Shown here: piece by piece, positions 193 to 12,482 of the stretch | Numbering within the stretch: position 1 is the stretch's first letter | How the letters are laid out: each line of letters starts with the position of its first letter | Source: Janthinobacterium sp. CG3 | GTDB lineage: Bacteria; Pseudomonadota; Gammaproteobacteria; Burkholderiales; Burkholderiaceae_D | Direction of reading: 5' to 3' | NCBI RefSeq assembly: GCF_000344615.1 | Contig: NZ_KB467824.1 | Coordinates: 1,763,741 to 1,827,740 of the forward strand | Length of the DNA stretch: 64,000 nucleotides | The notes under the pieces: model-generated | The model's input: only the letters and a program-made list of their open reading frames with translations | What the model was told of the DNA's origin: nothing | The model's database searches: none | Made by a program: the position numbers and the translations under genes

Positions 193-423
193 TCAATGGC
201 GCGGCGCCGGCGCGCCGGTTTTGGCGGCCCGGCGTGCGCGCGACGTGCTCAGGATGCGTTGAATGACCGGCTCTGGCACGCGGTTTTCCTTGAAATACGC
301 GGTGGCGACGGTCTTGCCCAGCGTCTTGTTGAATTCGACGCCGCGCTCGACCAGTTCGGCGGTGGCGGCATCGGTCCTGGCGTTGCTGCCGACAAAGGGG
401 TCCGGCTCGCTGTAACTGTGCAT
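193..423 (-). CDS. small cytosolic protein at the end of the amyloid operon
   Basis: A 76-residue protein with no signal peptide or membrane segment. It is charged, with a short Arg/Ala-rich basic tail (RARRAAKTGAPAPRH). I chose the ATG at 423 because GGAG lies 8 bases upstream; a GTG at 432 would overlap that site. It follows the porin gene by 27 bases on the same strand, so it is probably the last gene of the transcript. I do not recognise the family. With no export signal it is unlikely to be a fibre component; a cytosolic accessory role is possible but unsupported. Confidence 0.55.
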   Translation of the reverse strand: MHSYSEPDPFVGSNARTDAATAELVERGVEFNKTLGKTVATAYFKENRVPEPVIQRILSTSRARRAAKTGAPAPRH

Positions 424-450
424 GGTTGACACTCCATAGGTTTATCTCTG

Positions 451-1806
451 TTAAAAGGTCATCGGCACGCGCACCGTCAGCGACACGTCGGGGGTGTCCC
501 GGGTCAAGCCGGCGCCGAGCGCGACATTCAATGACTTGTTGGCGTTCAGGCGGTAGGAGTAGCCGACCAGCAGGGTGCCCAGCTGCGTGCGCACCGAACC
601 GGGCACGACCGCGCCGTTCTGGCGCGTGCGCCCTACCGTGTTGTGGTCGTAACCCAGGCTGAGCGAGGCTTTTTCATTCAGCGCCAGGCCGATGCCGAAG
701 TTAAAGCCCAGCACCGCGCCCGGTTCCACCGTGCCCAGCGCTTCGGTGCCGCCGTTCAGCACCCTGCGGCTGACGTCCTTGCGCTTGAAGTTGTGCAGAT
801 AGCTGACGCTGCCGAAAAACACCGCGGGGTCGGACGGGAACAACCAGGTAAGGCTGGGCTGCAGCGAGTAGAACCCGGAGCCGGTGGGCAGGTCCAGCGG
901 CAGCCCGGTGCCGGTGGCGTTCAGGCCGATGCAGCGCTGCTGGCAGTCGGTGACGACCTCGAACGGGTCGCGCCCCGTGCGCGACTTGAAGCGCAGGCCG
1001 GCGACGTAATACGGTTTGTCGGCGCCGCCGTCGTTGAGTTGGTAGCGCGCCGCCAGTTCGACGTCGCCAAGGGCCTTGCCGCTGGTGTCGAAGACCCGTT
1101 CGACGGCGGTGCCGGTAAAGATTTCCCGGCTGACGGTGGCGTCGGAGCGGTACACATAGGGCAGCTTGGCCTCCACCTCGACACGGTTGCTGATGCCGGC
1201 ACGCCCGGTCAGCGCCGCCGTGAAGGTGTTGCGTTTGACCTCGCGCACGTCGATCAGGCCGATCAGCAGCGCCGGGATGACGGTGTAGCCGACCAGCGCA
1301 ACCCGGTTGCTCGACGCATAACCGAACTGCAGCGACGGTTCCAGCACAAATTTCCCCCTGGGCGTGAGCACGCCCGGTTGCTCGAACAGCGGCGCGACCT
1401 CGGGCGGACGGCCGCTGCGCACCGGCGGGCGCCCGACCGCGCCGGGGTTTTGCGCCAGCCCCAGTCCTTGCCCGGGCTCCTGCCCCTGGCTTGGCGCCGC
1501 CGGCCCGGGCGCAACCGGGTCGGCGCCGGTACCGCCCGGTCCGGTGCCGCGCTGGCCGGCCAACACCTCGCTGCCGACGCCGCCGGCACTGCGGCGCAGC
1601 TCGGCGATACTGCGGTTTTGCTCGCCGACCGAATGGCGCAGTGTTTCGAGCAATTGTTTTTGCTCGGCGAGCTGTTTTTTCATCGTTTCAAGCTGATCCA
1701 CCAGTTCGGCGCGGCTACCGTTGAATTGCTGGCCGTGCGCGGCCGCGCTCAGGAGCAGCGCCGACACGCCAGCGACACCGAAACGTACCATTTTTTTTCG
1801 TTGCAT
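451..1806 (-). CDS. fapF: FapF-like outer-membrane porin for amyloid export
   Basis: A 451-residue protein: signal peptide (about 1-25), a coiled-coil stretch (about 28-70, heptads such as LVDQLETMKKQLAEQKQLLE), a Gly/Pro/Gln-rich linker (about 75-130), then a beta-barrel with alternating hydrophobic strands ending in a C-terminal Phe. This coiled-coil-linker-barrel plan is that of FapF, the trimeric pore that exports Fap amyloid subunits in Pseudomonas. The start is the ATG at 1806, with GAGGAGA 5 bases upstream; a longer reading frame to 1866 lacks a ribosome site and would bury the signal peptide. Its place downstream of a C39 peptidase and secreted repeat proteins supports the call. A generic transporter barrel is the alternative. 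Confidence 0.7.
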   Translation of the reverse strand: MQRKKMVRFGVAGVSALLLSAAAHGQQFNGSRAELVDQLETMKKQLAEQKQLLETLRHSVGEQNRSIAELRRSAGGVGSEVLAGQRGTGPGGTGADPVAPGPAAPSQGQEPGQGLGLAQNPGAVGRPPVRSGRPPEVAPLFEQPGVLTPRGKFVLEPSLQFGYASSNRVALVGYTVIPALLIGLIDVREVKRNTFTAALTGRAGISNRVEVEAKLPYVYRSDATVSREIFTGTAVERVFDTSGKALGDVELAARYQLNDGGADKPYYVAGLRFKSRTGRDPFEVVTDCQQRCIGLNATGTGLPLDLPTGSGFYSLQPSLTWLFPSDPAVFFGSVSYLHNFKRKDVSRRVLNGGTEALGTVEPGAVLGFNFGIGLALNEKASLSLGYDHNTVGRTRQNGAVVPGSVRTQLGTLLVGYSYRLNANKSLNVALGAGLTRDTPDVSLTVRVPMTF

Positions 1807-1886
1807 TATTTCTCCTCGAGAATGAGTGCGAAAACCAATTACGAGCGCCGGCCAGCGCCGGCGCAACCGGGACCGGCCCGCGACGC

Positions 1887-2390
1887 TCAGCGCGCGCCGA
1901 TGGCGTTGCTAAGCGCGTTGCGCAGGCCGTCTTCAAAATTGATCATTTTTAATAACTCCAGGCTGTTGACGCTGGTGTTGATCACGGTATGGGTGCGCAG
2001 CACCTGGTCGTTCAGGCTGTTCTGTATCACCGTGCCGGCCGCCGTCTGCGTCATCGGCCCCGCAATAAAGGTATTGCCGGCGCCGTTTTGCAGCAGGTTC
2101 AGCGCGGCGGCCGCCTCGCCGACCAGCGCCGCCTCGCGCTGGCCCAGCCTGGACACGTCGGCAATGCTGAACGAGCTGCTGGAGACGACGGTACCGTTGA
2201 CGCTGGCCATGCGCTCGATGCCGAGCGACATCACCAGGCCGCCGCCCAGGTCGTAACCGCCGCGCGCCTCGTCGAGCACCGCCTCGGACACCGGGGTCCA
2301 GTCGTCGGCGACGCCGGCGGCCAGCGCCGGCGCGCCCAGGCCGGCCAGCCACAGCAGGCAAGCCGGCATACACCCTTGATTCATTCGCAT
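1887..2390 (-). CDS. secreted Fap-operon protein with a double-glycine-like motif
   Basis: A 167-residue protein with a signal peptide ending near ALAAG (about residue 25). Just after it is SEAVLDEARGG, which resembles the end of a double-glycine leader, the kind of site C39 peptidases cut; a C39 peptidase is encoded next door. The middle holds a Ser/Val-rich stretch and a GIERMASVNG motif, and the C-terminal half contains GTVIQNSLNDQVL, related to the IQNS motif of the two upstream secreted proteins. The start at 2390 has GGGAGG 4-5 bases upstream. The position between peptidase and porin matches FapE, but I cannot show homology, so treat it as an amyloid accessory or minor subunit. Confidence 0.6.
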   Translation of the reverse strand: MRMNQGCMPACLLWLAGLGAPALAAGVADDWTPVSEAVLDEARGGYDLGGGLVMSLGIERMASVNGTVVSSSSFSIADVSRLGQREAALVGEAAAALNLLQNGAGNTFIAGPMTQTAAGTVIQNSLNDQVLRTHTVINTSVNSLELLKMINFEDGLRNALSNAIGAR

Positions 2391-2402
2391 ACCACCTCCC
2401 GC

Positions 2403-3095
2403 TTAAAATTCCCCCTGGCCGTGCCTGGGGATCGTCACCGTGTCGAGGCCGTTGCGGTTGACCGCCGTGGCCAGCGGCGCCGTCGGCGCCACGCGCCAGT
2501 CGGCTGCGGCGTTGAAACGCGCCGGCCCGGCGCGCGCCGGCACGCCATGTATGACAAACAACAGTTTACTGCGCCACATAGCCTCGAAGCTGTCGCGGGC
2601 CATCGCCCGGGTGCCCCCGGCCGGGTCGCCCACCAGCACCCGGCTTTCGCTCAAGCCCTTGACGACAACGAAATGGTGGTAGCCGTGATCCGACAACAGC
2701 ACGATGGCGGGGAAACCGGCGTCAAGCAGCTTGTGCAACGGTAATTGAAAGCCGTCCGCGACGAAGCCGTGCGCCGCAAGAAAGCGTTTGATGTCGAGCA
2801 AAGAAAAGCCTTCTTTCTTGATCTTCGTCTGGTCGCCGAGCAAGTACATTTGCTCAAACACAAATTGTTCGCTGACGGGGTAGGCGTAGTGGTGGCTGAG
2901 CAGGGTCGCCACCGCCGCCGAGCCGCAGCTGAAATCGTATTGCTGGCGCAGCGTGGTGAGGAAACGCGCCTCCTTCAGGCTCGTCACCGGAACCTGGAAA
3001 CGCGCCCCGCCCAGACTACCGAACTCCATCGCCGTGGCGGCGGCGCCGTCGGCGAGCAGCGCCGCGGCCAGCAGGGTTGTCGACAGCGTGCCCAT
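2403..3095 (-). CDS. fapD: periplasmic C39-family peptidase (FapD-like)
   Basis: A 230-residue cysteine peptidase with an N-terminal hydrophobic signal (about 1-20). The papain-like C39 active site is complete: the oxyanion Gln and nucleophile in QQYDFSCGSAAV (Cys57), the His in GYHHFVVVKG (140/141) and the Asp in VLVGDPAGG (157). C39 enzymes cleave leader peptides after Gly-Gly; the stand-alone periplasmic version in Fap operons, FapD, is required for amyloid secretion. There is no ABC-transporter domain, which separates it from bacteriocin exporters. It starts 2 bases after the previous gene's stop, so translation is probably coupled. The neighbouring secreted proteins are likely substrates (inference). 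Confidence 0.8.
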   Translation of the reverse strand: MGTLSTTLLAAALLADGAAATAMEFGSLGGARFQVPVTSLKEARFLTTLRQQYDFSCGSAAVATLLSHHYAYPVSEQFVFEQMYLLGDQTKIKKEGFSLLDIKRFLAAHGFVADGFQLPLHKLLDAGFPAIVLLSDHGYHHFVVVKGLSESRVLVGDPAGGTRAMARDSFEAMWRSKLLFVIHGVPARAGPARFNAAADWRVAPTAPLATAVNRNGLDTVTIPRHGQGEF

Positions 3096-3097
3096 GG

Positions 3098-3613
3098 TCA
3101 GCGCAGCTGCAAATTAACGACGGTGGCGTTCTGGATCAGCACGTTCGCCCCCGAATTCTGGATCACCACCGGTATGCCGGCGGCGTTGCTGAACGCGGCG
3201 CCGTTGACGATGTTGTTGCCGGTACTGACGTTGACGGCCGCGTTGCCGCTGACCACGCCGCTCAGCCTGGCCTCGTTGCTGACGGTGTCGGCGCCGCCGC
3301 GCGACTGCTCGAGTTGCTCCAGCGCTACCGCCACGCTAAAGCCGTCCGCACCGCCGCCCAAGCGCACTTGAACGGGCGGCGGCGCGATCGCCATCAGCGC
3401 CGCCACCGACGCCGGCATCGGCTCGGCGATGGGCCCGGCTAAATTGCGCATTCTGCCGTCGGCGAGCGCCGGCGGGGTCCATCCCCAGTCCGCTGGCGCG
3501 GCAGGCTGCTCGGCAGCGCCGTCCAGCCACGCCGACGCGAGTTCGTCGCCCCGGGCCGGCACCGCCGCCGCCAGCGCCAGCACGCCGGCGCCCATGCATC
3601 GTATCCATCCCAT
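3098..3613 (-). CDS. secreted amyloid-like minor subunit candidate
   Basis: A 171-residue protein with a signal peptide (about 1-22, MGWIRCMGAGVLALAAAVPA). The C-terminal 60 residues are rich in Asn, Val, Ile and Gln, with evenly spaced Asn/Gln and Gly, ending in VIQNSGANVLIQNATVVNLQ. That tail strongly resembles the end of the upstream Gly-rich protein (ISQNSGLSSLIQQSVTVQAN). Asn/Gln-rich beta-prone tails suit amyloid cross-beta ladders. The start is the ATG at 3613, because AAGGAGG lies 4 bases upstream; the open frame runs further back to 3706 without a ribosome site. It may nucleate or cap fibres, as FapB does, but that is inference from context. Confidence 0.6.
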   Translation of the reverse strand: MGWIRCMGAGVLALAAAVPARGDELASAWLDGAAEQPAAPADWGWTPPALADGRMRNLAGPIAEPMPASVAALMAIAPPPVQVRLGGGADGFSVAVALEQLEQSRGGADTVSNEARLSGVVSGNAAVNVSTGNNIVNGAAFSNAAGIPVVIQNSGANVLIQNATVVNLQLR

Positions 3614-3638
3614 ATTGCCTCCTTGTCCTGTTACACCA

Positions 3639-3714
3639 CCCGGCGGCGGCACCCGGGTCGCGGGTGCCGCCGCCGGGCGGCTCGCTTCGTTCGGCGCGGC
3701 ATTCACGCCGCGCC
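3639..3714. other. tandem intercistronic hairpins
   Basis: Between the Gly-rich subunit gene and the next gene lie a perfect 17-bp stem with a 5-base loop (3639-3655 with 3661-3677) and an 8-bp stem with a 6-base loop (3693-3700 with 3707-3714). Neither is followed by a T-run, so they are not ordinary terminators. They could attenuate transcription or protect the upstream message and so give more Gly-rich subunit than downstream products. Confidence 0.5.
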
Positions 3715-3746
3715 CTACCCTGGCGGGAGGGGCGCGGCGGCGGCCA

Positions 3747-5234
3747 TTACCGTCCCAGCGACAAGTTCGCCTGGACCGTCACGCTTTGCTGGATCAACGA
3801 CGACAGGCCGCTGTTCTGGCTAATGACCAGCAGCCCGGCCGCCGACTGCGCCGTACCCGTCATGGTGTTCGCCATATTGAAACTGCCCGCGTTCACGCTG
3901 TTGCTACCACCGGCGCCGCCGGTGCCGCCCGCGGCCGCGCCACCGCTACCGGCGCCGCCGGTATTGGTGCCGCCCGCGCCGCCCGCGCCCGCGGTGTTGG
4001 TGCCGCCCGCGCCGCCGGCGCCGCCGGCGCCCGCGGTGCCGCTGCCGCCGGTGGCCGCGCCGCTGGTGGCGCTGCCGTTGGTGGAGGCGCCGCCAGCTGC
4101 GCCGCTACCGGCCGTGTTACTGGCGTTGCCGCTGGCGGCGCCTGCCCCGCCTGCCCCGCCCGCGGCGCCAGCGCCGCCGGTACTGGTGGCCGTCGCGCCC
4201 GCGCCCGCCGCGCCGCCGGCGCCGCCGGTGCCGGAAGCGCCCGCGCCACCGGTGCCGGTGACGGCCGCGCCGGCGCCGCCGGCGCCGCTGGTGCTGGTGC
4301 CGCCGGCGCCGCCCGCGCCGGCCGTGTCGGTAGAGGCGCCGCCAGCGCCGCCGTCAGGAGGCATGCCGGCGCTGCCGCCGGCGCCGCCAGTGGCGCCGCC
4401 GCTGGTGCCGCCCGCGCCGCCGGGGTTGCCCCCGGCCCAGCCACCGCGGGCGCCGTTGCCGCCGGCGCCGTCGCCGGCGCCGCCGTGACCGCCGTAGCTG
4501 TCGCCGGCGCTGCCGCCGTTGCCGCCGGCACCGCCCGTCGCGGCGCCGCCGTTGGCACCGCGGCTGCCGGCGCCGCCCATGCCGCCCATGCCGCCGGCGC
4601 CGGTGTTGGCGTCGCGCGCCGCGCCGCCGTCACCGCCGCGTCCGGCGAGGCTGTCGCCGACCGCCGCGCTGCCGCCGGTGCCGGCGCCGCCAGCGGCGTC
4701 GCCGCCGCGCGCGCCGCTGGCGCCGGCGGCGCCGCTGGCGTCGCCGCCGCGGGCGCCGACGCCGACCGCCAAGCCGCCCAGGCCGTGGCCGCCGGTGCCG
4801 CCGGCGCCGGCGCCGCCGTTGGCGTTGCCGAGGTTGGTCGCGTAGTTGCCGATATTGCTCACCATGTTACCCGTCACCGTGCCGGAGAGGCTGCTGACGG
4901 CGGTGGCGCTCGAGGTGTTAAACGAGTTGGTGAAGTTCGCCGTCGATACGCCGCCGTTGTTGGCGGCGGAAGCGCCGGAGCCCATTGCGGCGGCCTCGCC
5001 GGAACTGTTGTTTTGCCCGGTGCTCTTGTCGTTGTTCTGATCCGAGTAGTTGTCTTGCGTGGCGTACGAATTGTCGTACGCCGACGGACCGGCGCCGCCC
5101 TGCGTGGTGGTGTTGCTCGCAGTTTGGGTGTTGCTGCCCGGTGTGTCGTTGGCCGCGTTCACCGCCCCGTTCTGTGCCTGTGCAGTCAGGCTGAAGGCGA
5201 GGGCGATAGCTGCCGCTAGAAGAGTTTTTTTCAT
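3747..5234 (-). CDS. Gly/Ala-repeat secreted protein, candidate main amyloid subunit
   Basis: A 495-residue protein: a clear signal peptide (1-20, ending TAQA), an Asn/Ser/Thr/Gln-rich domain (about 21-135), a 300-residue low-complexity block of GGAGG/GGAGA/GGTNT-type repeats (about 136-440) with almost no bulky residues, then an Asn-rich C-terminal domain with SQNSGLSSLIQQSVTVQ. The Gly block resembles mycobacterial PE_PGRS or polyglycine-II proteins more than the repeats of Pseudomonas FapC, while the flanking domains look like fibre-forming segments. It is the first gene after the sigma-54 promoter and is separated from the rest by two hairpins, as expected for the most abundant product. 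AAGGA lies 6 bases before the ATG. Function as a fibre or matrix protein is inferred from the operon. Confidence 0.65.
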   Translation of the reverse strand: MKKTLLAAAIALAFSLTAQAQNGAVNAANDTPGSNTQTASNTTTQGGAGPSAYDNSYATQDNYSDQNNDKSTGQNNSSGEAAAMGSGASAANNGGVSTANFTNSFNTSSATAVSSLSGTVTGNMVSNIGNYATNLGNANGGAGAGGTGGHGLGGLAVGVGARGGDASGAAGASGARGGDAAGGAGTGGSAAVGDSLAGRGGDGGAARDANTGAGGMGGMGGAGSRGANGGAATGGAGGNGGSAGDSYGGHGGAGDGAGGNGARGGWAGGNPGGAGGTSGGATGGAGGSAGMPPDGGAGGASTDTAGAGGAGGTSTSGAGGAGAAVTGTGGAGASGTGGAGGAAGAGATATSTGGAGAAGGAGGAGAASGNASNTAGSGAAGGASTNGSATSGAATGGSGTAGAGGAGGAGGTNTAGAGGAGGTNTGGAGSGGAAAGGTGGAGGSNSVNAGSFNMANTMTGTAQSAAGLLVISQNSGLSSLIQQSVTVQANLSLGR

Positions 5235-5308
5235 TGCAGTTCCTTATTGAAAAAGTTAGCCGAGGATAAATCTGGCTTGGCGGACTCCGCTAAGCACAGA
5301 CTGTCAAT

Positions 5309-5323
5309 GCAAACTCAGTGCCA
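5309..5323 (-). promoter_or_regulatory. sigma-54 -24/-12 promoter of the amyloid operon
   Basis: Read on the minus strand the site is TGGCACTGAGTTTGC: a full -24 TGGCAC and -12 TTGC with the required ten bases between GG and GC. Transcription would start near 5297, giving a leader of about 60 bases before the ATG at 5234. The upstream neighbour encodes a sigma-54 activator, which makes chance unlikely. Confidence 0.8.
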
Positions 5324-5432
5324 GCCCCAACAAAATATCGCTAAGCTTTTGAATATTAAGGATTTTTATAACAATACCGGGTGCCGCCGGCGCACTCGGC
5401 GCGACAGCGCGGCCGGCAAATCGGCTGCGCCT

Positions 5433-5591
5433 GTCACACCGCTGTGACGGCGAGGCCGGCCGGCGTCTGCCGGGCGTTCGAACGGGTCAGGAAATATCGC
5501 GTAAAATCAATCACTTAAGCGGGCGGCGCATTGGCTTTTGCGCGCGCGAAAGGTGTATCAAGGTTGTGACCGGGGCCGCCCAGGCTGTGAC
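5433..5591. promoter_or_regulatory. TGTGAC/GTCACA boxes, candidate enhancer sites
   Basis: GTCACA-CCGC-TGTGAC (5433-5448) is a perfect 6-bp inverted repeat about 110-125 bases upstream of the -24 element. Two more TGTGAC copies lie at 5565-5570 and 5586-5591. Distance and spacing fit activator sites for a sigma-54 promoter. A CRP-like factor is an alternative, but the half-sites point the opposite way to the CRP consensus. The rest of 5235-5625 holds no gene. Confidence 0.4.
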
Positions 5592-5625
5592 AGCCGCGAC
5601 AGGCGCACGCGGCGGTGCCGGCGCG

Positions 5626-6954
5626 TCAGCAGTGGATGCCGTGCTTGGCCAGCAGGCGGTACAGGGTCATGCGCGAGACGCCCAGGTCGCGCGCGGCCTG
5701 GCTGATGTTCTTGCCGGCCCGGTCCAGGCTGGCGTCGATGGCGTCGCGCTCGGCGCGCAGGCGGATGCCGTCGAGCGCGTCGCCGTTGCTGCGCCGCAGC
5801 GGCGCCTCCAGCCCCAGGTCCTGCGGCGAAATCAGGCGCCCTTCGGCCATCACCATGGCGCGCCGCACCCGGTTGATCAGCTCGCGCACATTGCCGGGCC
5901 AGTCGTGCGCCTTGACCGCCTCCAGCGCCTTGCCGCTGAACCCCTTGACGCGCGGCGCCCGTTCGGCCGCGAACTGCGCGAAGAAATGGTTTGCCAGCAA
6001 AGCCAGGTCGTCCTTGCGCTCGCGCAAAGGCGGCACGTCCAGCGCCAGCACGTTCAGGCGGTAGTACAGGTCTTCGCGGAAGGCGCCCTTCGCCACCGCC
6101 TTTTGCAGATTCATATGGGAGGCGGCGATCACGCGCACGTCGAGTTCGATGCTCTGGGTCGAGCCGAGCCGGTAGATGGTCTTTTCCTGCAGGAAGCGCA
6201 ACAAATTCGATTGCAACTCCATCGGCAAGTCGCCGATCTCGTCGAGGAAGACCGTGCCGCCGGCGGCCGACTCGATCAGACCGCGCTTCTCGCGCGCCGC
6301 GCCGGTGAACGCGCCGCGCTCGTGGCCGAACAGCTCGGACTGGATCAGGCTGGCCGGAATCGCGCCGCAATTGATCGGCACGAAGGGCCCCCCGGCGCGC
6401 GCCGACTGCGCGTGGATGGCCTGCGCGGTGAGTTCCTTGCCGCTGCCGCTCTCGCCCCAGATCAATACCGGCGCGCTGGCCGAGGCAACCCGGCTGATTT
6501 GCCGGCGCAGGCGGCTGATGGCGCCGCCGTGGCCCTTCAACGCCGTCCCGCGCTGGGATGCCAACGCCGGCGCCTCGCGCAGCGTCGCGTAGCCGTGCGC
6601 GTGGCCCAGCGTGTGGCCCAGCCGCAGCGGGTCGATCGGCAGGGTATGGAAATCGCAGCAATGCTCGGCCACCAGGCGGCGCCAGTCCGGCAACTGCAGC
6701 GTGCTCGGATGGAACACCCCGACCCACTGGACGCCCCAGTGCTGGCGCAGGAAACTGTCGATGTCGTCGAGCGCGTCGGCGCGCGCCGTGCCGAGCAGCA
6801 ACCCGACCAGACACGGCTGTTCGCGCAACACGCGGGCCGCCTCGCGCAGGCCGGCAACGCGGTGGATGACCCAGTCATCCGCCCATGCCGGCGCCGCCTC
6901 GGACAGCGGCGGCGGACCGTCCAGCGTGACGTACAGCAGTTGCTTTTTGAGCAT
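5626..6954 (-). CDS. sigma-54-dependent activator, VpsR-like
   Basis: A 442-residue enhancer-binding protein. Residues about 1-125 form a receiver-like domain without a recognisable phospho-acceptor Asp. Residues about 135-365 are the AAA+ domain, with Walker A GESGSGKE, the sigma-54 contact loop GAFTGA, and Walker [14 protein letters not shown]. The C-terminus (about 400-440) is a Fis-type helix-turn-helix ([19 protein letters not shown]). The intact GAFTGA means it can drive sigma-54 promoters, and a perfect one lies immediately downstream at 5309-5323. The domain plan resembles VpsR, a c-di-GMP-responsive biofilm regulator; whether this protein binds c-di-GMP is unknown. GGAGG precedes the ATG. 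It most likely activates the amyloid operon. Confidence 0.85.
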
Positions 6955-7226
6955 GTCCCTGCCTCCAAGGTGAATCGGATTGATTTACATATAAGTAATA
7001 ATGATTAAAATACAATATTAAGCGCAAAAAAATAGCGCGGACGAATCCGGCGGGGCCGCGCCGCCGGCGGCGCCCCGGTCAGCGCGCATCTATCATGCCT
7101 TGGGCTGCGAAAAACTGCAAATCGATACGCGCGGGCATGTTGGGGGGGGAGCGAACCAAGGGCAAGGGCTGGGGTCCGACACCGCCGGCGCTTGAGCCGG
7201 TGGTTTTTTTCACGCGATGCGGCAGC
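6955..7226. other. intergenic region upstream of the activator
   Basis: No gene is seen. The part next to the activator (about 6975-7035) is unusually AT-rich for this genome and probably carries its promoter on the minus strand. The remainder, between the urease operon end and this promoter, shows no hairpin with a T-run and no convincing reading frame. Confidence 0.4.
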
Positions 7227-7274
7227 TTAGCGCAAGCCCAGCATGGCGCCGCCGCGCTTGGCGATGTGGGTCAT
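7227..7274 (-). CDS. 15-codon micro-ORF overlapping the ureG stop
   Basis: An ATG at 7274 overlaps the TGA of ureG in an ATGA junction, the arrangement used for coupled translation elsewhere in this operon. The frame encodes only [15 protein letters not shown] before a TAA. It may be the remnant of a further urease-operon gene, a chance overlap, or a real micro-peptide. There is no evidence of function. Confidence 0.2.
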
Positions 7275-7921
7275 GCCGTTTCCCCCGGGGTGAAATGGTG
7301 GTGTTGGTCCAGCAGGCCCTGCTCGCGGATGAACTTGATCACCGTCTCCACGCCGGCGCCGCTGCGCAGGTTGGTGAACACGACCGGCCGCTCGCCGCGC
7401 ATGCGCTTGGCGTCCTGCGCCATGACGTCGAGGTTGGCGCCGACGTAGGGCGCCAGGTCGGTCTTGTTGATGATCAGCAGATCCGAGCGGGTGATGCCGG
7501 GGCCGCCCTTGCGCGGTATTTTTTCGCCGCCGGCCACGTCGATGACGTAGATGGTCAGGTCCGACAGCTCCGGGCTGAAGGTGGCGGCCAGGTTGTCGCC
7601 GCCGGATTCGACCAGGATCAGGTCGAGGTTGGGGAAGTCGGCCTGCATGCGCGCGATCGCCTCCAGGTTGATCGAGGCGTCCTCGCGGATCGCCGTGTGC
7701 GGGCAGCCGCCGGTTTCAACGCCCATCAGGCGCTCGGCCGGCAGGGCGCCGGCGCGCAGCAGGATTTCCATGTCCTCCTTGGTGTAGATGTCGTTGGTGA
7801 TGACGGCCATGTCGTAGTGTTCGCGCATGCCTTTGCAGAGCATTTCGCACAGCGCGGTCTTGCCCGAACCGACCGGGCCGCCGATGCCCACGCGCAGCGG
7901 GTTGGATGTGTGGCTTGTCAT
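7271..7921 (-). CDS. ureG: urease accessory GTPase UreG
   Basis: A 216-residue SIMIBI-class GTPase that powers nickel delivery to apo-urease. The P-loop is [11 protein letters not shown] near the N-terminus, and the family signature [17 protein letters not shown], with the Cys-Pro-His nickel-binding motif, is intact. Length matches typical UreG (about 205-215). It is the last full gene of ureDABCEFG, 18 bases after ureF. It works in the cytosol with UreD, UreF and UreE. Confidence 0.97.
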
Positions 7922-7939
7922 AGTTGTCTCCTCATGATG

Positions 7940-8626
7940 TTAAGAACGGTAGAGCCGGCTGTACTGCACTTCGTGCTGCATCGACAGCAGCGCCAGCCCG
8001 GGCGCCCAGTTGCACATGTCGTCGTCCGGCACCTCTTGCGCGTAGCGCGCCGCCGCCTCCAGCTCGGCGCGCAGCGACAGCAGCAGGCGCTGCCCCGCCA
8101 CCTGCCCCAGCGGCACCGATTTGACGCACACCAGCACCTGGTTTTCGGCCCAGGCGAACAGCATCGCCAGCAGCGCGGCGTCGTGCGGGATCGCCAGCGC
8201 CACCACCGCGCAGGCGTAGGCGGTCGGCAGCGCCACCTCGGGCTGGCCCTGCAGCGTCTCGATCAGCGCGCCGTCGGCCACGCCCAGCCCGGCCAGCAGC
8301 TTGGTCAGCGAATAGCCCATCTGGATGGTCTCGGCGCGGAACTCGGCGCTGTCGCGCGAGGCGACGAAGCGCTCGCTCCAGCGCTGCACCGCCGCCACGT
8401 CGCGCACCTGGAAGGCGCGCATCAGGCGCCAGCACACGGCCGCCTCCCACGGCGCCACCACCTCGTGCAGGTGCCGCACGATCCAGTCGCGCGCGCCGGC
8501 GGCGTCGCGCACCGCGCCGCGCTCGAGCGCCGCCTCCAGCCCCTGCGAATAGCTGTAGGCGCCGATCGGCAGCGCCGGGCTGGCGAACTGCAGCAGGTGC
8601 AGCAGCGCGGACGCCTGCATCGTCAT
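7940..8626 (-). CDS. ureF: urease accessory protein UreF
   Basis: A 228-residue, Ala/Leu-rich all-helical UreF. It starts MTMQASALLHLLQFASPALPI and contains the conserved GAYSYSQGLE motif. UreF bridges UreD and UreG in the activation complex. The ATG at 8626 overlaps the ureE stop (ATGA), which fixes the start and indicates translational coupling. Open frame continues further upstream through ureE but is a shadow. Confidence 0.95.
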   Translation of the reverse strand: MTMQASALLHLLQFASPALPIGAYSYSQGLEAALERGAVRDAAGARDWIVRHLHEVVAPWEAAVCWRLMRAFQVRDVAAVQRWSERFVASRDSAEFRAETIQMGYSLTKLLAGLGVADGALIETLQGQPEVALPTAYACAVVALAIPHDAALLAMLFAWAENQVLVCVKSVPLGQVAGQRLLLSLRAELEAAARYAQEVPDDDMCNWAPGLALLSMQHEVQYSRLYRS

Positions 8627-9141
8627 GCCGGGTCGTGCGGACGGTGGATTTTCTGCCGCAGCGGGATCGGCGCCAGCGGATTGTGGCCGCCGTGGCCGCC
8701 GTCGTCGGCGTGGCCGTGGCCGCCGCCGTAGGCGCCCGCCTCCGGCTCGAACGGCGCGCTTTCCTCGGTGACGCTGGCCCGCAGCCCCTCCAGCATTTCC
8801 TTGAGCACCGGGTCGCGGCGGATGCGCAGGAAGCCGTCGCCGACGTGCGCCTGGGTATGCCGGTTGCCAAGGTGGAAGGCGCAGCGCAGCAGCGTGTGCG
8901 CGTCGGCGCAGCGCACCAGGTAGGTCGGCTCCCTGGCCGCGACGATGCGCACCACCCGGCCCGATTCGCCGGTCAACAGGTCGCCGTCGCGCAGCACGGT
9001 GCCGCGCACGGTGAACACGGCGACCTCCTCGCCGCTCGACAGGGTGGCGCGCAGGCGGCATTTCTCGCGCAGCTCGTAGGGCAGCACCAGCTCCGCCTCG
9101 ACCGCCTCGGCGCCCGTGATTTTGCTATGCAGGGTCAGCAT
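8623..9141 (-). CDS. ureE: nickel metallochaperone UreE
   Basis: A 172-residue UreE. The C-terminal domain has the nickel-binding HLGNRHTQAHV segment (about residues 91-101), and the tail is His-rich (GGGHGHADDGGHGGHN, about 139-154), typical of proteobacterial UreE that stores several nickel ions. It hands nickel to UreG for insertion into UreC. It overlaps ureF by 4 bases and follows ureC by 12. Confidence 0.96.
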   Translation of the reverse strand: MLTLHSKITGAEAVEAELVLPYELREKCRLRATLSSGEEVAVFTVRGTVLRDGDLLTGESGRVVRIVAAREPTYLVRCADAHTLLRCAFHLGNRHTQAHVGDGFLRIRRDPVLKEMLEGLRASVTEESAPFEPEAGAYGGGHGHADDGGHGGHNPLAPIPLRQKIHRPHDPA

Positions 9142-9153
9142 CGAACACTCCTT

Positions 9154-10854
<1,701 letters not shown>

Positions 10855-10855
10855 G

Positions 10856-11233
10856 TTATCCCTTCCCCCGCGGCGCGGCGGCGTCCGCCGCCGCCGGCGC
10901 ACCGGCCGGCGCGCCCGGCGCCACGTCCGCCAGCTTGCCCATGACGGCGCCGTTGAAGCCGTACACCACGCGATCGCCGGCCAGCGCCACCAGTTCCACG
11001 GTGCGCTGCTGGCCCGGTTCGAAGCGCACGGCGGTGCCGGCGGCGATATTCAGGCGCATGCCGTAGGCGCGCCAGCGCTCGAACGACAGCGCCGGGTTGA
11101 CCTCGAAAAAATGGAAATGCGAGCCGACCTGGATCGGCCGGTCGCCGCGGTTGGCCACCACCACCGTGGCGGTTGGGCGGCCCGTGTTCAGGCTCAATTC
11201 GCCCTCTTCCAGCTTGTATTCACCGGGGATCAT
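10856..11233 (-). CDS. ureB: urease beta subunit
   Basis: A 125-residue protein beginning [19 protein letters not shown], with the conserved [14 protein letters not shown] motif. It is slightly longer than the usual 101-110 residues because of an Ala/Pro-rich tail (about 105-125) ending in PRGKG. Structural subunit of the (UreABC)3 urease. Ten bases separate it from ureA. Confidence 0.96.
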
Positions 11234-11243
11234 GACGCGCTCC

Positions 11244-11546
11244 TTAAGGAATCGGGTTGTGGACGGTAACTAGCTTGCTGCCGTCGGGGAAAGTGGCTTC
11301 GACCTGGATGTCCGGGATCATCTCGGCGATGCCGTCCATGACGTCGGCCCGGCTGAGGATCTTGGCGCCGTCCGACATCAGCTCGGCCACCGAACGGCCG
11401 TCGCGCGCGCCCTCCATGATGGCGGCGCTGATCAGGGCCACGGCTTCCGGGTAGTTCAGTTTCAGGCCGCGCGCCAGGCGCCGTTCGGCCACCAAGCCGG
11501 CCGTGAAAATGAGCAGCTTGTCTTTTTCTCTGGGGGTCAAATCCAT
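11244..11546 (-). CDS. ureA: urease gamma subunit
   Basis: A 100-residue protein, exactly the family length, starting [20 protein letters not shown] and ending TVHNPIP. It contains [21 protein letters not shown], the UreA core helix. It is a small structural subunit of urease, lying between ureD (25-base gap) and ureB. Confidence 0.97.
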
Positions 11547-11571
11547 CGTGTTTATCCTGTACGGCTAGGTT

Positions 11572-12432
11572 TCAAGTGTTCCAGATGCGCAGCGCCGGGG
11601 CCGCGCGCTCAAGCAAAAAGGGGCGCAGGCGCTGCCAAACGGCCAGCATCACGCGGCGCGCCTGCTCGCTGTCGTCGCCCAGATAGCGCGCCGACAGCAC
11701 GCCCTTCATCTGCGTTACGCCGAACTTGCCGGCGCCGTCCAGGCCGGCCTCGCGCAGGCTCGCCAGCGCCGCCGCCGGCAGCACTTTGCCGACCGCCAGC
11801 AAGGTGGCGCAGACGCTGTGGCCGTCCAGCCCGAGCGGGCTGCGCAGCATCTCGCCGCCGCCGGCCAGCGCGCCCTGCTCCCACCAGACCAGCTTGCCGT
11901 CGCGGTGGATTTGCGTGCGCTGCGCGATTTTCCCGCTATTGAAGGTTTCGCCCGAGGCGCGCCGGCCCAGGCACAGGATCTCGCAGCCGATGTAACTGGC
12001 GTCGGCTTCGAGTACCACGGTTTGCTCCAGCGCCACGCGGGCCTGGTCGAAGAAGATGCTCTCCTGCGGCAGCCACTCGACGCTGGCGCCGGCCTGCGCC
12101 TGCAAATACACCTGCTGGCGCGACACCTTGCCGTTGGCCTTGTACCACTTGGCGGCGCCGGGCGATGTCAGCAAGGCGTGCGCGGCCGGGCCGACCCGCG
12201 CGCTGATCGACAGCTGGTCGCCGCCGACCACGCCGCCGGGCGGATGCACGACAATCGCGTGGCACACCGCCCCGCCCTCCGGATACAGCGGCTTTTGCAC
12301 GCGCAAGGGGCCGGCGTGGCTGCGCTCGACCAGCCGGGTGGTGCCGGCGTCGTCGGCAAAGCCCAGCGTCAGGCGGGCGTGCCAGGCGCTGTCGTTCGTG
12401 CTCGGGTGGTCGGTGGTAGCGCTATCGGGCAT
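11572..12432 (-). CDS. ureD: urease accessory protein UreD
   Basis: A 286-residue UreD, first gene of the operon; it forms the scaffold on apo-urease for UreF and UreG. The family features HPPGGVVGGDQL and LTSPGAAKWYK are present. Two nearby ATGs are possible: 12432, about 10 bases from GGAAG, and 12441, which lies too close to it. I prefer 12432, which also gives a 24-base leader from the predicted sigma-54 start. Confidence 0.92.
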   Translation of the reverse strand: MPDSATTDHPSTNDSAWHARLTLGFADDAGTTRLVERSHAGPLRVQKPLYPEGGAVCHAIVVHPPGGVVGGDQLSISARVGPAAHALLTSPGAAKWYKANGKVSRQQVYLQAQAGASVEWLPQESIFFDQARVALEQTVVLEADASYIGCEILCLGRRASGETFNSGKIAQRTQIHRDGKLVWWEQGALAGGGEMLRSPLGLDGHSVCATLLAVGKVLPAAALASLREAGLDGAGKFGVTQMKGVLSARYLGDDSEQARRVMLAVWQRLRPFLLERAAPALRIWNT

Positions 12433-12467
12433 GGCTGGCATTCTTCCAAAGATTACCTGCCTACTAA

Positions 12468-12482
12468 GCATATTTTGTGCCA
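12468..12482 (-). promoter_or_regulatory. sigma-54 promoter of the urease operon
   Basis: On the minus strand the site reads TGGCACAAAATATGC: a perfect -24 TGGCAC and a -12 ATGC (consensus TTGC) with ten bases between GG and GC. The predicted start near 12456 leaves a short leader to ureD. The NtrC-like palindrome upstream supports it. Confidence 0.65.

Follow-up and report, generated by a model that had tools for sequence, protein, structure and literature searches.

The window analysed here, a 64,000-nucleotide stretch from Janthinobacterium sp. CG3 (host genome 6.27 Mb), carries on its minus strand, at positions 451–5234, an operon for a glycine-rich secreted subunit, a small subunit (B), a C39 peptidase, a second small protein (E) and, last, an outer-membrane porin, with a sigma-54 activator gene upstream. 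This glycine-rich operon is a real and widespread branch of Fap-type secretion, homologous to canonical Fap but separate from it. An earlier sequence-only reading had recognized the activator, a Gly/Ala protein, two small secreted proteins, the C39 peptidase and the porin as running in one direction, and all of these are present. The most useful result beyond that reading is a C39-type leader on both E and B, together with an aligned site in canonical FapE.

A separate branch of Fap-type secretion

Loci (L numbers below) were labelled by neighbourhood and BLAST before trees were built. Sequences for the peptidase tree came from 64 of 65 loci (L049 gave none), with 62 kept after length filtering; all 65 loci gave porin sequences, of which 61 were kept, and the L045 and L086 rows are identical. 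The window's group forms one side of a supported branch in both the peptidase tree (40 rows, 97/95) and the porin tree (39 rows, 97/97) and lies outside canonical Fap in both, which upholds the earlier suggestion of a distinct branch. In the porin tree canonical Fap comes out as a single group (100/99), which the peptidase tree does not recover. Two loci labelled Fil beforehand (L051 and L085) are placed away from the remaining Fil rows.

The gene set recurs among 115 loci chosen by their porins, one of them the window's own. Profile matches cover the peptidase at 107 loci, B at 104, E at 103, the activator at 78 and the C-terminal module of the glycine-rich subunit at 69, with some contigs incomplete, so the arrangement is not a chance one. 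Among porin relatives (80 named loci kept of at least 561), the best are from Janthinobacterium, most are from Massilia, Duganella, Pseudoduganella, Rugamonas or Telluria, a few are from Rhodoferax and one is from Paucimonas. Of the genomes sampled, a B-subunit profile matches 70 of 294 in the family (spread over 8 of 44 genera, the window's own genome included) and 14 of 369 in the class; these counts rest on the B sequence, with neighbours checked for some genomes. Occurrence is patchy even within the window's genus, where 8 genomes match and at least 19 do not. No description of this branch was found in the open-licence literature among the titles and abstract beginnings of the matches listed.

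Peptidase and porin

The secretion machinery is very probably homologous to that of Fap, judging from profile and fold comparisons. The peptidase matches Peptidase_C39 in Pfam (1.3e-19) and, in NCBIfam, FapD (1.4e-36, 125.8 bits) ahead of FilB (5.3e-33, 114.6 bits). It is a stand-alone enzyme with a signal peptide (judged by eye, as for all proteins of the operon), and the catalytic residues that the sequence-only reading had called intact are Cys57, His141 and Asp157, aligned with 6mpz (4.9e-6). The Cys, His and Asp signatures are kept in 106 of 107 peptidase loci (104 by pattern, L078 and L080 by eye); the sole peptidase that lacks the full set is a truncated frame of 118 residues (L143).

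The porin matches FapF (3.4e-42, 144.7 bits) well ahead of FilC (2.7e-15, 56.6 bits), and in a phmmer search the window porin alone matches the FapF crystal sequence 5o67 at 2.9e-31, which is the fair figure since a search that included five canonical FapF rows gave an inflated 1.5e-112. Structure prediction for the porin gave an AlphaFold2 model (mean predicted local distance difference test score, pLDDT, of 77; input alignment including five canonical FapF rows) with a helix at residues 32–74, a low-confidence linker and a barrel. In a Foldseek search, FapF 5o65 is its best match (7.1e-21, template modelling score 0.81 by target) and the top 18 rows are all FapF chains, with the COG4313 structure 4rl8 ranked below them. 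The window thus has a FapF-type barrel with an N-terminal coiled coil. Peptidase and porin fall short of the curated FapD and FapF cut-offs (330 and 700 bits), which alone excludes little because several canonical-looking FapF proteins also score under 700 bits. Neither protein was assigned to an unrelated family, the outcome that the sequence-only reading had named as speaking against its proposal. One genome holds a second porin of this branch (L049) with no C39 peptidase in its 16-kb stretch; it is perhaps an orphan.

Small subunits and their Fap counterparts

Neither B nor E matches a Pfam family. In profile comparisons, E matches FapE at 6.3e-7 across 48 columns that surround the leader (score 45.5, reached by none of 100 column shuffles, whose maximum is 17.2), B matches FapB at 1.2e-4 (28.7; 0 of 100 shuffles, maximum 22.5) and B matches E at 8.1e-10. 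The mature module of B is conserved, ends in VIQNSGANVLIQNATVVNLQLR and includes one module that resembles a FapB repeat. The C-terminal module of the glycine-rich subunit in turn matches B (27.4; 0 of 100 shuffles, maximum 20.8). Since all three comparisons exceed every shuffle, the small subunits are of Fap type and the glycine-rich subunit is tied to them through its C-module. The profile check that the sequence-only reading had called for thus finds FapB, FapD, FapE and FapF counterparts, and the two small proteins that it described as Asn/Gln-rich are present and are more than that, being homologous families with a leader motif.

The link of E to FapE is remote: a FapE profile has no match at an E-value of 1e-5 or below in the window's genome. 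A FapB profile has none there at 1 or below, while all four control genomes match it (one of them, G385, is in the profile). FapB and FapC with three imperfect repeats were not found with the profile built here, which is other than the published repeat model. The earlier reading also saw no FapA-like chaperone, in agreement with a best FapA profile E-value of only 0.45 in the genome, while all four controls match (G186 is in the profile).

Leader motif and predicted cleavage site

E carries LDEARGG at residues 39–45, followed by Tyr, and B carries LEQSRGG at residues 101–107. Classical C39 leaders have Leu at P7 and Gly-Gly at P2–P1. The L, R, G and G of L-x3-R-G-G are invariant in the E alignment (17 of 17 rows). 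Among 91 distinct E proteins the site reads RGG in 89, RAG in one (L160) and CGG in one (L165), so that all 91 have GG or AG; in three, RGG is followed by L or A. The 92 distinct B proteins are more varied, with RGG in 71 (including L030), G-K or G-R in 17 and HAG in four; all read GG, GK, GR or AG, and the motif Leu is Met in L072 and L073. The variants include S/T-G-K in Massilia/Telluria loci (L105, L111, L115, L117 and others) and H-A-G in Duganella (L152, L154, L160, L165), and they offer a natural series for studying peptidase specificity. The presence of the motif is weak evidence by itself, because 68 of 693 background open reading frames (ORFs) have a looser form within their first 140 residues; the evidence is its conservation at one aligned place. 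In B, mean column identity rises from 0.38 before the motif to 0.68 after it, as expected of a pro-region.

At the aligned place, canonical FapE reads [L/M]-x3-[RTH]-G-[KR]-[FY] in all 26 distinct proteins (RGKF in L182). Equivalence of GG, GK and GR sites is supported by the B proteins of the glycine-rich branch, which vary among these three forms in related genera. The intact sites on E and B suggest what the peptidase acts on, cleavage at both leaders is probable, and the aligned FapE site predicts a specific FapD cleavage site. For canonical Fap, passages of PMC5557850 report that FapD Cys38 is essential and needed for FapC secretion, that the proteins lack canonical C39 sequences and the FapD target is unclear, that FapA–FapD appeared unprocessed in mass spectrometry and that no peptides from a mature FapE N-terminus were observed. 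Passages of a 2025 review (PMC12822426) name the N-terminus of FapE and the periplasmic region of FapF as the presumed targets of FapD processing. No mention of a specific conserved FapD site was found in the titles, abstract beginnings and selected passages of the open-licence literature.

The same genome has a separate Fil-type locus (L008, 8402–13747, C1 at about 5.017 Mb) with a C39 peptidase, a FilC-like porin and, judged by eye, a FadL-like barrel. Secreted-looking proteins nearby carry LSTVSGQDG, LSHVRGQ and LSAVRGGDG motifs, so both stand-alone C39–porin loci of the genome have leader-like cargo. A third motif form, L-x3-[RT]-G-Q, occurs in the first 90 residues of an ORF in five of the nine Fil-type loci L166–L174 (L167 and L169–L172) and was not found in L166, L168, L173 or L174.

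The glycine-rich first subunit

The first subunit has conserved N- and C-modules (about residues 84–137 and 448–495) on either side of a Gly/Ala block at residues 138–447. The 300-residue GGAGG block of the sequence-only reading is thus 310 residues long, with 137 Gly (44%), 78 Ala and a weak periodicity of three residues (lag-3 autocorrelation 0.24). The protein has no Pfam match up to an E-value of 1, and its single NCBIfam match lies below cut-off and covers only the first 21 residues. Three proposals for this subunit were rejected. A polyglycine-II fold for the block finds no structure in AlphaFold2 (mean pLDDT 36); direct homology of the modules to FapB or FapC yields nothing above shuffles; and a B protein with an insert is not supported, the joined N- and C-module columns scoring 24.5, swapped columns 24.4 and the best of 100 shuffles 25.2.

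First genes were counted in 81 loci (73 distinct proteins), excluding loci in which they are truncated or wrongly started; 33 of the 73 were picked upstream by composition, which favours low-complexity ORFs, and all 73 end in the C-module pattern. At least 20% Gly is found in 67 of the 73 distinct complete proteins (75 of 81 loci counting duplicates), including some outside the family (L075, L077, L083). Values below this occur outside the family in L072 (0.18), L073 (0.16) and L074, L078 and L080 (0.08–0.09). The sixth low value, in L162, is meaningless because 237 of its 768 residues fall in an assembly gap. Relatives without glycine enrichment bear low-complexity spacers of other kinds, for example SDN repeats in L080. 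We read the Gly block as a possible exchangeable spacer, comparable with the variable FapC linkers described in parts of PMC3792158.

In two loci this gene occurs in tandem. L074 has two tandem first-subunit genes (4504–5148 and 5542–6123) of about 200 residues each that lack the Gly block. L078 has the first subunit–B–C39–E cassette twice in tandem (1988–4506 and 4865–7370); B, C39 and E are the same in length and examined ends between copies, unlike the first subunit, whose length and sequence both differ.

Proposed mechanism and alternatives

The operon is likely to be a Fap-homologous fibre-secretion system of a separate branch in which a C39 peptidase licenses export through a leader cut. 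All cargo and machine proteins would enter the periplasm by Sec. The peptidase would cut both E and B at their L-x3-R-G-G sites, either between the two Gly residues or just after the second, to free the mature modules, and this cut would license the FapF-type pore to export unfolded subunits. At the surface, E would anchor and B nucleate the fibre, and the glycine-rich subunit would polymerize through its terminal Asn/Gln modules, with the block of about 300 residues staying exposed as an exchangeable spacer that determines the physical character of the matrix. The same step in canonical Fap would occur in FapE at L-x3-R-G-[K/R]-[F/Y]. An amyloid product is slightly more likely than not.

The same machine might instead export a non-amyloid product, in which the block is polyglycine-II or PGRS-like, or disordered, and the terminal modules only tether. 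We consider this fairly unlikely. The block is rich in Gly, weakly periodic and the largest part of the protein, and there is one recognizable C-terminal Asn/Gln module versus three repeats in published FapC (per the relevant part of PMC12822426). However, the C-module and B keep their Asn/Gln-rich sequence across genera, AlphaFold2 predicts no polyglycine-II or PGRS-like fold, and the block appears dispensable because it is missing from L074, L078 and L080 and weak in L072 and L073.

It is unlikely that L-x3-R-G-G is a docking or export signal read by the peptidase or porin without cutting. Conservation of the catalytic signatures in 106 of 107 peptidase loci, the position of the B motif at the junction between a poorly conserved pro-region and a conserved part, and the requirement for the FapD Cys in the canonical system (PMC5557850, in part) all argue for cutting, whereas the variants with G-K or G-R at this position are non-canonical as cleavage sites, and catalytically inactive C39-like chaperone domains are known in type I secretion (the same source). 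It is very improbable that the locus encodes a Fil-type pilus or adhesin, or an uptake channel of the COG4313 type beside an unrelated peptidase, and resembles Fap only through deep family kinship: FilB scores near FapD and the peptidase tree places the branch with Fil-type peptidases, but the porin clearly favours FapF over FilC, E and B match FapE and FapB, 4rl8 ranks after 18 FapF chains, and the genome's separate Fil-type locus lies outside the window's clade in both trees.

Several results weigh against a leader-licensed, Fap-type fibre system as proposed above. The peptidase tree joins the glycine-rich branch to Fil-type peptidases with strong support (100/98), and the porin tree does not settle the order of the three groups (88/76), so their deeper histories disagree. 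At the E motif, conservation rises only slightly, from 0.45 to 0.58. Gly is the usual P1 residue for C39 enzymes, which would make G-K and G-R non-canonical. AlphaFold2 gives no confident fold for the glycine-rich subunit (mean pLDDT 36), the link of its N-module to B is borderline (its score is reached by 1 of 100 shuffles), and its C-module is linked to FapB and FapC only via B. Cutting of B would be special to the glycine-rich branch, because FapB appeared unprocessed in canonical Fap (PMC5557850). The suspicion that FapE is a FapD substrate is not new, since passages of PMC5557850 and PMC12822426 already raise it.

Regulation

The activator matches Sigma54_activat (6.5e-69) and VpsR (9.5e-12) in Pfam; its best NCBIfam match, PEP_resp_reg, reaches 380.6 bits, under the cut-off of 502.6. 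The window's –24/–12 promoter agrees with the consensus at 11 of 11 positions. At least 9 of 11 positions are present upstream of 78 of 81 first genes (70 of 73 distinct), versus 1.81 expected from mononucleotide shuffles, at a median of 85 bases from site to start codon. Applied to ten canonical operons, the scan found all positions matched in L064 and 9 of 11 in L062 and L068. GTCACA words at 95–420 bases upstream occur 1.30 times per locus versus 0.14 in mononucleotide shuffles, about a ninefold excess; they are present as candidate sites at 57 of 81 loci, a set of related loci that includes duplicates. Activator homologues (43–58% identity) adjoin 9 of 11 canonical Fap loci and occur in none of ten Fil-type stretches, nine of which are only 7–8 kb long. 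This kinship is only supporting evidence because such activators resemble each other in general. Sigma-54 terms are absent from PMC3684753. The canonical Fap locus L070 has two flanking sigma-54 activators (1–1068 and 8303–9613) related to that of the window.

Extent of the locus

The sequence-only reading had placed the system at 193–6954. The operon and activator within that interval stand, but its last gene, encoding 76 amino acids, probably does not belong to the system, because tblastn matched it in only one (L043) of 24 comparison loci (L008 and L029–L051). Subunit B is taken to begin at the likelier ATG at 3613; a 202-residue ORF starts upstream of it, at 3706. The activator gene adjoins, on the same strand, an apparent urease gene cluster (7271–12471).

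Table 1. Coordinates of the glycine-rich operon and adjacent features in the window
Feature	Position	Strand	Description
Sigma-54 activator	5626..6954	-	442 amino acids; AAA+, Fis-type helix-turn-helix, weak VpsR-like N-terminal domain
GTCACA/TGTGAC words (four), candidate enhancer sites	5433..5591 (at 5433, 5443, 5565, 5586)		Upstream of promoter
Sigma-54 -24/-12 promoter TGGCACTGAGTTTGCA	5308..5323	-	89 bases upstream of glycine-rich subunit gene
Glycine-rich first subunit	3747..5234	-	495 amino acids; signal peptide, N-module, Gly/Ala block, C-module
Small subunit B	3098..3613	-	171 amino acids from ATG; signal peptide, variable pro-region, leader, conserved mature module
C39 peptidase, FapD homologue	2403..3095	-	Signal-peptide-like N-terminus
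E protein, FapE homologue	1887..2390	-	167 amino acids; signal peptide, leader, Asn/Gln-containing later part
Outer-membrane porin, FapF homologue	451..1806	-	451 amino acids from ATG; signal peptide, coiled coil 32–74, Pro/Gly linker, barrel
76-amino-acid gene, probably outside system	193..423	-	tblastn match in 1 of 24 comparison loci

Implications and comparison with known systems

A broader reading, for which we judge the chances to be even, joins these observations. FapD-type enzymes could be a general family of periplasmic double-glycine-leader proteases with the cargo signal L-x3-[RTSH]-G-x, which in FapE would be masked by replacement of the second Gly with Lys or Arg. The glycine-rich branch, with the signal intact on two cargo proteins, could then be a separate class of matrix fibre, probably missed by surveys based on FapB/FapC repeats, and would contradict the idea of Fap as an evolutionarily fixed design. 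Passages of the 2025 review (PMC12822426) describe Fap as fixed in synteny and in its three repeats, with surveys requiring FapB/FapC repeats near other fap genes. In contrast, the glycine-rich branch places the large subunit before the small one and has no FapB-profile match, yet B-like sequence is present in 70 of 294 family and 14 of 369 class genomes. A Gly/Ala-spaced secreted fibre, if real, would be of interest to materials and biofilm research.

Of other known systems, curli is not indicated, with no Csg family among the listed Pfam and NCBIfam matches of the six proteins. Mycobacterial PE_PGRS proteins share GGA/GGX composition with the glycine-rich subunit; the likeness is compositional only, with no PE domain and no Pfam match in that subunit. 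Peptidase-containing ABC transporters (PCATs) share the C39 fold, the aligned Cys, His and Asp and a leader in which Leu occupies P7 and Gly-Gly occupies P2–P1. The window's peptidase differs from them in being stand-alone, signal-peptide-bearing and presumably periplasmic, its partner is an outer-membrane pore and its substrates carry Sec-like signal peptides.

Fil systems (FilB peptidase and FilC porin; a "putative pilus system" in NCBIfam) also pair a C39 peptidase with a related porin, and 6 of 10 Fil-type loci have at least one ORF with a leader-like L-x3-[RST]-G-[GQ]. DUF6160 proteins are Fil cargo. The window differs in its much closer similarity to FapF, its other cargo and its separate clade; FapD and FapF outscore FilB and FilC, and the glycine-rich subunit, B and E have no Pfam family. 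The sequence-only reading had treated a C39 peptidase with a coiled-coil porin as the signature of Fap. The pair is present and Fap-like, but as a signature it is too broad, because the Fil-type locus in the same genome has such a pair too and because neighbouring fapD and fapF homologues are reported in five further phyla in parts of PMC6173800.

The closest comparison is with Fap. The window's system differs in scoring below the FapD and FapF cut-offs, in a genome that yields neither detectable FapA nor a match to the FapB profile, in placing the large subunit before the small one, in its 310-residue Gly/Ala block, in double-Gly leaders that are intact on E and, in addition, on B, and in forming a clade of its own in the peptidase and porin trees. 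Published Fap operons often lack FapA as well (PMC3792158, in part). With Fap the system further shares a homologous pore, the C39 peptidase, the E protein, a FapB-like module, an adjacent sigma-54 activator and the D-E-F gene order.

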